NCBI GenBank assembly: GCA_018607835.1
Contig: JABBAS010000001.1
Coordinates: 2,197-66,196 of the forward strand
From: Methylobacillus sp.
GTDB taxonomy: Bacteria > Pseudomonadota > Gammaproteobacteria > Burkholderiales > Burkholderiaceae_C
Direction of reading: 5' to 3'
DNA length: 64,000 nt
Shown here piece by piece: positions 8,309-24,489 of this stretch. Each line of letters opens with the position of its first letter. Position 1 is the first letter of the stretch. A program made the translations under genes and the position numbers. The notes beneath the pieces are model-generated. The model was not told where the DNA came from, did no database searches, and saw only the letters and a program-made list of their open reading frames with translations.

Positions 8309-8441
8309 AGGTGTCCTGTGAAGGGTGGTATCAGTTAGGGCGCCTGAGCATCGCGCGTCAGACAGCCCATTATTTTAGCCGCATGCGCCAGCGCCTTCGT
8401 TGTCTTGGGCGCTGTCGCAGGCGCGTTGCAAATACAGGACA

Positions 8442-22512: not shown

Positions 22513-23094
22513 TTAGGTATGAAACTTAAATACCGCTGTACTGGCCGTGAGGTTAGGTAGCCAACGGCGCGGCGTACCGCCATGCAAACCAAACCCTTCG
22601 GCGATGCGTAGGTTGTTGGCCTGGGCGAGCACCTCGAAGTCGGCAAATGTACCCACGCGAATGTTGGGCGTGTTGTACCACTGATACGGCAAACGCTTGG
22701 TGACCGGCATGCGACCCAACAAGACTTGCAAGCGGTTGGGCCAGTGGGCGAAGTTCGGGAAAGAAACAATACCAATACGCCCAACACGCGCCGTCTCCCG
22801 CAACATGACCTCGGCGTTGCGTAGGTGCTGCAAGGTATCCAATTGCAACACCACATCAAACGACTGGTCTTCAAACATTTGAAGGCCCTCGTCCAAATTC
22901 AACTGCAACACATTCACACCACGGGCAATACAAGCCGCTACTTTACTGTCATCGATTTCGACGCCATAGCCATGGCATTGCCGTGTGTTTTGCAAATGCG
23001 CCAAAAAGCGGCCATCCCCACAGCCCAAGTCCAATACCCGCGCACCCACCGGGACCAAGGCGGCAAGCGCCAACATGCTGTCATCACCGCTCAT
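22513..23094 (-). CDS. metW: Methionine biosynthesis protein MetW
   Basis: SAM-dependent methyltransferase-fold protein of 193 aa with motif [14 protein letters not shown] and the MetW-typical region [31 protein letters not shown]. MetW works with MetX to acylate homoserine in proteobacteria. I start at ATG 23094, which has the Shine-Dalgarno AGAGGTG and overlaps the metX stop by 11 bp. The longer track start is unneeded. It is co-transcribed with metX, so under the same riboswitch. Confidence 0.93.
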
Positions 23095-24262
23095 GGGACA
23101 CCTCTTTGTCAAAGTACGCACGAACCGCGCTGTGGTAGCGCCCATCGTCCAACAAGAATGCATCATGGCCGTGCGGGGCGTCTATCTCCGCATACGACAC
23201 CCGCCGCTGGTTATGCAGCAAGGCACGCACCAGCTCACGACTGCGACTGGGTGCGAAGCGCCAATCCGTCGTAAAACTCACGACTAGAAACGAGGCCTTC
23301 ACCTGCCCAAGGGCCGCCGTAAGGCTGCCGCCGTAGGACTTGGCGGGGTCAAAATAATCCAATGCGCGGGTGATCAGCAAGTAGGTGTTGGCGTCAAAGT
23401 ATTCCGCAAACTTATCCCCCTGATAGCGCAAATAACTTTCAATTTCAAACTCAACAGCCTGCGTGCTGAACTGGAAATCCCGCTCTGGCCCGGTTGACGC
23501 TTGGGTTACGTCGTTCGCGAGTTGGCGCAAACGGCGACCAAATTTCTCGTTCATTACGTCGTCGCTCAGATAGGTGATGTGTCCAATCATCCTCGCGATA
23601 CGCAAGCCACGGCGTGGCAATGTGTCATGCGCGTGGTAATGGCCCTCGTGAAAGTCAGGGTCGGTCACGATCGCGCGTCTAGCCACCTCGTTGAAGGCAA
23701 TGTTTTCAGCGGTTAAGTTAGCCGCACTCGCTACGACAACCGCATGGCGCACACGGTCCGGATACTGCATGGCCCAACTCGTTGCCTGCATACCGCCCAA
23801 GCTGCCGCCCATCACGGCGGCCAACTGCGCAATGCCTAAGGCATCTAGTAACGCCGCCTGCGCATTGACCCAGTCCTCTACCGTCACAACGGGGAAGTCG
23901 GCGCCCCACATCCGGCCCGTTTCGGGGTTAAGCGTTGTCGGCCCACTCGAGCCGAAACAAGAGCCGATGTTGTTAACACCAATCACAAAAAATCGATCGG
24001 TATCAACGGGTTTGCCTGGGCCCACCATGTTGTCCCACCACCCTTCGCTTTTAGCTCGCACCGTGCCATCTTCCTCAACATACACACCCGCAACGTGGTG
24101 CGAGGCGTTCAGGGCGTGGCAAATGAGTACCGCGTTGCTCTTATCAGCACACAATTCCCCATACGTCTCGTAGGCTATCTCGTAGCTGGGCAAGACCGCG
24201 CCACTCTGCAACGCGAGCGGCTCGCTGATACGCAGCGTTTTAGTTTCGGCAATTAGTGGCAT
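23084..24262 (-). CDS. metX: Homoserine O-acyltransferase (MetX)
   Basis: Alpha/beta-hydrolase-fold enzyme that acylates homoserine as the first dedicated step to methionine (acetyl or succinyl donor not decided here). The nucleophile elbow is GGSLGGMQ (Ser near residue 149). Asp in [11 protein letters not shown] and His in [10 protein letters not shown] complete the triad. I start at [10 protein letters not shown] (392 aa); the track ORF wrongly extends 73 residues through the leader RNA. No good Shine-Dalgarno precedes the ATG; a U-run hairpin occupies that place. Followed by metW. Confidence 0.95.
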
Positions 24263-24267
24263 GGCAC

Positions 24268-24300
24268 AAAAAACCCGGTGAACCAAAAACGGGGCCGGGT
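24268..24300 (-). terminator. Terminator-like hairpin between the SAM-II RNA and metX
   Basis: On the minus strand, ACCCGG pairs with CCGGGT over a 16-nt loop and is followed at once by six U, ending 5 nt before the metX ATG. The stem is short (6 bp), so termination strength is uncertain. Its position suggests control of read-through or of ribosome access. Confidence 0.5.
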
Positions 24301-24314
24301 GGTGCCTGAGCGGT

Positions 24315-24370
24315 CCGTTTTTAGCTGAATTTATAAAAGGCGCCCGCAAGCCGGAGCAAATCAGCGCAAT
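24315..24370 (-). ncRNA. SAM-II riboswitch
   Basis: Read on the minus strand, the leader has the SAM-II core in order: GCGCTGATTT, a C-rich loop with CCGG, CTTGCGGGCGCC, ATAAAT, then CAGCTAAAAACGG. P1 forms from GCGCU with GGCGC. The pseudoknot can form between loop CCG and the 3' CGG, the pairing that usually masks ribosome access. SAM-II RNAs are known upstream of metX and metA, mostly in Alphaproteobacteria and marine sequences. An extended -10 just upstream would start transcription at the first base of P1. Confidence 0.85.
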
Positions 24371-24373
24371 GAC

Positions 24374-24382
24374 AGTATAGCA
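24374..24382 (-). promoter_or_regulatory. Extended -10 promoter for the metX leader
   Basis: TGCTATACT on the minus strand matches TGnTATAAT with one mismatch. The expected start is about 7 nt downstream, at the 5' strand of riboswitch helix P1. No good -35 is seen, as is common with extended -10 promoters. Confidence 0.6.
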
Positions 24383-24473
24383 ATGCCTGGCCCCAGCACG
24401 CCCAGCACGCTTGGCACCCGGGCCAAACGACCGTCTCAACCGCCGCACCAATCCAGCGCGCCAGTCATGGTTT

Positions 24474-24489
24474 TGGCGCATAAATTGCT
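24474..24489 (+). promoter_or_regulatory. Sigma-54 (RpoN) promoter of amtB
   Basis: TGGCGC, 5 nt, then TTGCT: GG and GC are separated by exactly 10 bp, as needed for -24/-12 recognition. It is 74 bp before the amtB start codon. RpoN/NtrC control of ammonium transporters is established in proteobacteria. I see only half-site-like GCACCA sequences for NtrC, not a clear palindrome. Confidence 0.75.

Follow-up and report, generated by a model that had tools for sequence, protein, structure and literature searches.

Several SAM-sensing RNAs related to the element studied here have been described. SAM-II riboswitches (RF00521) are represented by the leaders of metZ in Sinorhizobium meliloti (PMC9373788) and metA in Agrobacterium (PMC1273637). 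The presence of SAM-II in beta-proteobacteria is already known from papers published in 2005, 2007 and 2009: the first SAM-II alignment already contained Bordetella (PMC1273637), Barrick and Breaker (2007) described beta-proteobacterial as well as alpha-proteobacterial SAM-II RNAs with terminators (PMC2258182), and Poiata (2009) reported SAM-II in Alpha-, Beta- and Gammaproteobacteria (PMC2704228). SAM-V RNAs, found with metY and bhmT in Pelagibacter, have a SAM pocket nearly identical to that of SAM-II but are translational and have a 2-bp P2a that contains the Shine-Dalgarno sequence (PMC6061858).

Leyn et al. (2014) applied Rfam profiles to about 200 genomes and reported SAM_alpha in Rhizobiales and Rhodobacterales only, while proposing a novel metXZ RNA upstream of metXW and metZ in 35 beta-proteobacterial genomes (PMC4239095). 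As described there, the metXZ RNA has two pseudoknot contacts (regions 1/4 and 2/6), a region 3 that lacks a complementary partner, and a terminator with a proposed antiterminator; it is called novel and no ligand is named for it. A 2022 paper referred to regulatory elements in the leaders of metK, metX and metZ in Burkholderia thailandensis as confirmed, though not published (PMC8814607).

We analyzed a 64,000-nucleotide stretch of the genome of a Methylobacillus sp., hereafter the window. A preliminary description had proposed that a SAM-II aptamer lies upstream of metX-metW, and profile searches, homology and gene context all supported this proposal. We read the element, with a probability of roughly 0.88, as a SAM-II riboswitch that would turn off metX-metW through premature transcription termination at high SAM. 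The aptamer is complete, lies 105 nt upstream of metX-metW behind an extended -10 element, and was annotated with its neighbors as follows (window coordinates; minus strand throughout).

24374..24382 (-): extended -10 element TGCTATACT, from the sequence
24305..24371 (-), core 24314-24367: predicted SAM-II aptamer, found by the beta-proteobacterial covariance model R3 (59.3 bits) and by RF00521 at 24300-24377
24363..24367 (-): P1 5' strand GCGCU, partner of 24340-24344
24357..24362 (-): L1 GAUUUG, third strand of the P2 triplex, from the alignment
24352..24355 (-): P2a 5' strand UCCG, complementary to CGGA at 24314-24317
24346..24349 (-): P2b 5' strand UUGC, paired to the GC.AA portion of GCUAA; no variation seen, but in part fixed by the search pattern
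24340..24344 (-): P1 3' strand GGCGC, paired in 57/57 sequences without being imposed by the search pattern
24326 (-), start of AGCUAAAAA: AUAAAU plus AGCUAAAAA, from the sequence
24320..24325 (-): P2b 3' strand and ligand pocket GCUAAA, invariant in 57 sequences; final A not imposed by the pattern
24314..24317 (-): P2a 3' strand CGGA, from the sequence
23084..24262 (-), AUG 24262-24260: metX, homoserine O-succinyltransferase, 392 aa (NCBIfam NF047916, 622.6 bits, cut-off 560)
22513..23094 (-), start inferred: metW, overlapping the end of metX (NCBIfam TIGR02081, 231.9 bits, cut-off 189.5)

An open frame at 23084-24481 (-) runs in frame through the riboswitch; a gene caller that picked the ATG at 24481 would add 73 residues to metX, spanning the leader.

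Each piece of the motif core that had been placed on the minus strand (GAUUUG, UUGC, AUAAAU and AGCUAAAAA) was located there. P1 and the claimed CCG:CGG pseudoknot (24354-24352 with 24317-24315) were also present in the sequence, and the latter can be extended to UCCG:CGGA. In the alignment, 100% of P1 cells were paired (n = 57 sequences), with a single compensatory change (GC to AU) and four changes from C-G to U-G; as P1 is nearly invariant among beta-proteobacteria, covariation support inside the sequence set is thin. UUGC and GCUAA had been imposed during sequence collection, yet the final A of GCUAAA and the 3' strand of P1, which were left free, were conserved as well. For P2a, 43% of cells were paired among relatives, with no excess over shuffles, and covariation across metX leaders did not exceed permutation (7.3 versus 7.2), with UCCG:CGGA present in the window. 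By analogy with SAM-V and SAM-II structures (PMC6061858), U24360, U24359 and U24358 would correspond to the SAM-contacting uridines of the third strand, and by homology U24323 would be the partner of the SAM adenine. All nucleotides predicted by this mapping to contact SAM are present in the window: UUU of the third strand, UU of UUGC, and U and AAA of GCUAAA.

The element shares with classical SAM-II RNAs a predicted H-type pseudoknot, the GAUUUG, UUGC and GCUAAA segments, a promoter directly before P1, and a terminator between the aptamer and the methionine gene. It differs from them in its P1, which is GCGC[CU]:GGCGC rather than CGUGG:CCACG, in its shorter L1/P2a loop, in a P2a of just 4 bp, in a score under the Rfam cut-off, and in its target, metX-metW.

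Scanning the whole window against Rfam at the gathering threshold listed nothing. In a local scan, RF00521 matched the locus over its full model length, the best match in the 2.42-Mb genome (E 6e-4). The preliminary description had named a score above the RF00521 gathering threshold as support for the element, and this threshold was narrowly missed (26.5 versus 36 bits). So low a score from the public model might suggest a chance resemblance in a GC-rich leader. However, R3, a profile derived from 23 leaders that all come from other genera, with the window and its genus left out, found 24371-24305 with an E value of 1.9e-17 for the window and 7e-16 genome-wide, and the element is conserved with the same gene throughout the family; chance resemblance was ruled out by this conservation, and we regard its probability as negligible. 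A second R3 match in the window (8359-8416, 11 bits) was taken as chance, as was a match to the LcrF thermometer at the locus (17 bits against a cut-off of 169). The SAM-V covariance model (RF01826) gave no match at the locus at E up to 10.

The sub-threshold score can also be combined with the conclusion of Leyn et al., who found SAM_alpha in only two orders and called the metXW/metZ leader element new, to argue that the window element is the metXZ element, an RNA class of beta-proteobacteria distinct from SAM-II. Homology between profiles ran in both directions, however. RF00521 matched many relatives in the same register, with E values of 1e-8 to 1e-3; of 60 relatives, 48 were matched with E no higher than 0.3 and five exceeded the cut-off. 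Conversely, R1, a covariance model built from 57 leaders including the window, was searched across 200 genomes of the phylum and recovered alpha-proteobacterial SAM-II RNAs at 29-43 bits; nine of the loci it found were SAM_alpha by Rfam at 63-81 bits. A model built on beta-proteobacteria only thus leads back to classical alpha-proteobacterial SAM-II, so we filed the element as a SAM-II member; the pocket nucleotides are identical. Moreover, the published description of the metXZ RNA, in the text of that paper (regions 1/4 and 2/6, a terminator, metXW and metZ), fits the window element, a pseudoknot leader of such genes in beta-proteobacteria with a terminator downstream. We therefore consider a separate class very unlikely. 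Matched by description in that text (position, genes, class and structure), the metXZ RNA is almost certainly SAM-II, and the RNA called new in 2014 has most likely been identified.

The gene context of the relatives pointed the same way. Among 29 loci picked from the RF00521 search regardless of their genes, 20 precede metX (19 of these metX together with metW), five precede a metZ-like gene and a single locus precedes a MATE operon; like the window element before metX-metW, 25 of the 29 thus lead into metX or a metZ-like gene. Three loci of the same family, upstream of metX-metW, exceeded the Rfam cut-off at 38-40 bits. When metX loci were instead fetched by protein, the element was upstream of metX in about 71 of 80. 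The metX loci that have a complete upstream region but lack the element look like genuine losses, with metX tightly behind another gene.

The preliminary description had also called SAM-II best known from Alphaproteobacteria. Its occurrence in a beta-proteobacterium is nevertheless no surprise (PMC1273637, PMC2258182, PMC2704228).

The same description had an extended -10 element starting the RNA at P1, and TGCTATACT is present where this predicts; the RNA would start at roughly position 24367, where P1 begins. TATA[CA]T was found 6-11 nt (once 14 nt) upstream of P1 in 84 of 101 related leaders, with about one expected after shuffling. A simple scan found no -35 element.

Ahead of metX we found a terminator and an antiterminator, a part of the mechanism absent from the preliminary description:

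24268..24300 (-): intrinsic terminator, ACCCGG (24300-24295) with CCGGGU (24278-24273) plus U6 (24273-24268), -11.0 kcal/mol, z -1.4
24315..24325 (-): antiterminator 5' arm GCUAAAAACGG, which is the 3' strand of the aptamer itself; 11 bp with 24282-24292, -15.5 kcal/mol
24282..24292 (-): antiterminator 3' arm CCGUUUUUGGU, within the terminator loop, complementary to GCUAAAAACGG

The terminator ends about 6 nt ahead of the metX AUG. Its loop is 16 nt long, and a simple terminator scan, which covers loops of 3-8 nt only, misses it. A terminator-like hairpin was present in 68 of 71 metX leaders. Folding predicted that the nascent RNA contains the antiterminator hairpin together with P1, and an unconstrained minimum-energy fold of the full leader gave a more stable alternative (-30.4) with the terminator and without P1. 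In relatives, the loop segment varies with the aptamer tail (GCUAAAG:CUUUAGC, GCUAAAGAC:GUUUUUGGC, GCUAAAGAG:CUCUUUGGC and GCUAAAUC:GAUUUGGC). Over 47 distinct tails, the best-helix scores between tail and loop exceeded those of permuted partners (z 2.7; 10 of 2000 permutations), a moderate statistic. No obvious Shine-Dalgarno sequence was seen upstream of AUG 24262, which, like the alternative fold, weighs against our overall reading of the element.

The expression platform is most likely a SAM-dependent transcriptional OFF switch. This model builds on aptamer homology, position, promoter element, terminator and complementarity as found at the locus; for SAM as the ligand and for the OFF direction, we infer from the SAM-II family. 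RNA polymerase would start at P1. Without SAM, GCUAAAAACGG would pair with CCGUUUUUGGU once the latter has been transcribed; this would trap the terminator's left arm, and transcription would continue into metX. When SAM is present, the GCUAAAAACGG strand would be tied up by UUGC and UCCG in the pseudoknot and the antiterminator could not form; ACCCGG:CCGGGU and the U-tract would then halt the polymerase about 6 nt upstream of the metX start codon.

Certain SAM-II RNAs and the SAM-V RNAs work on translation (PMC6061858; PMC9373788), and the aptamer might likewise act mainly by hiding the ribosome binding site, like the metX example from the Sargasso Sea. Here, though, the aptamer ends about 50 nt from the AUG, a terminator lies between them in the great majority of leaders as counted above, and no Shine-Dalgarno sequence overlaps P2a. 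Mainly translational control is hence improbable, and transcription termination is the reading we retain.

Under this reading, methionine entry in this bacterium would be placed under direct RNA sensing of SAM, the presumed ligand, with a concrete terminator/antiterminator pair for metX-metW. Because the public SAM-II model at its cut-off misses most beta-proteobacterial members, the beta-proteobacterial SAM-II regulon is undercounted; it takes in metX-metW, metZ-like genes, metH, metK, a metNI-like transporter and an uncharacterized MATE-transporter operon.

A second element was found in the same genome outside the window, at C9:72839-72906 (-), equivalent to L175:3840-3907 (-), scoring 33.9 bits with R1 and 31.9 bits with R3. 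It lies 52 nt upstream of metK (TIGR01034, 582.7 bits), and the 30 metK loci retrieved from this genome and its relatives all have an element of the same type. Its consensus is [AG]UCGC[CU]-GAGUUA-..GA[AG]C.AC-UUGC-.GGGCGA[CU]-..-GCUAAAGCGUUCGCC. The third strand is GAGUUA where the window element has GAUUUG, such that, with the position assigned by analogy, a G replaces the third-strand uridine that contacts the partner of the SAM adenine in SAM-V and SAM-II (PMC6061858). P1 of the metK-type element varies between G-C and A-U and among C-G, U-G and U-A along with its partner, with wider variation in other families, and its covariation score exceeded those of all 500 shuffles and of every slid version. 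P2a is GAAC:GUUC; in two loci it is GAC:GUC, with both strands one pair shorter.

Downstream in the metK leader, CUCC faces the metK Shine-Dalgarno sequence GGAG, with matching flanks (z 2.8, 17/3000), and GGCAACGC is complementary to a P2a strand. The natural reading of this arrangement of sequences is that the metK-type element would be a translational OFF switch. Matches with E of 1e-5 or lower occurred in 62 of 200 genomes of the order. Among the 30 best of these loci, most lay before metK and several before a small unknown protein and a MATE transporter; in several, a GAUUU-type aptamer with a terminator of its own came first and the metK-type element was the second aptamer. On balance, we lean towards the view that Burkholderiales have a second SAM-II-like riboswitch variant, in metK and tandem leaders, in which the pocket changed to GAGUUA may give altered SAM affinity or accept another ligand, and which, with an apparent anti-Shine-Dalgarno instead of a terminator, would switch off translation of SAM synthetase, sometimes paired with a transcriptional SAM-II.

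Rfam searches matched no family to the metK-type element in this genome (E up to 10) or in four others (E up to 1). With no matching family in Rfam 15, the switch is apparently uncatalogued, with an earlier mention in the literature possible. It is a more novel lead than the window element, and bears both on the control of SAM synthetase and on how one substitution in the SAM-II pocket affects ligand choice.

Other SAM-II-like leaders were seen in the course of these searches. Ten tandem leaders (L211, L215, L216, L220, L221, L223, L235, L135, L012 and L036) begin with a GAUUU-type SAM-II aptamer and a terminator, with another SAM-II-like aptamer roughly 100-200 nt further along, close to the start codon; they resemble the transcription/translation pairing of SAM-II and SAM-V in Pelagibacter. 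SAM-II-type leaders in L012, L215, L216, L220, L221, L229, L230 and L232 precede a small protein starting with MFDC or MYDC and then a NorM-like MATE transporter; two of the small proteins were searched and had no Pfam match. Five loci from probable Pseudomonas genomes have SAM-II-like aptamers with a long J hairpin, under the Rfam cut-off, before a protein of about 105 aa, and in one of them (L158) the P11 sRNA adjoins. Matches of the beta-proteobacterial model also lay before the methionine synthase gene metH (two loci) and before ABC transporter genes resembling metNI (two loci), with these genes named by eye. Finally, the Burkholderia sRNA Bp2_287 (RF02424) weakly matched the opposite strand of SAM-II and terminator leaders at L230:1306-1442, L215:1335-1512 and L223:1372-1494, and RF02424 may be a SAM-II leader read on the wrong strand.
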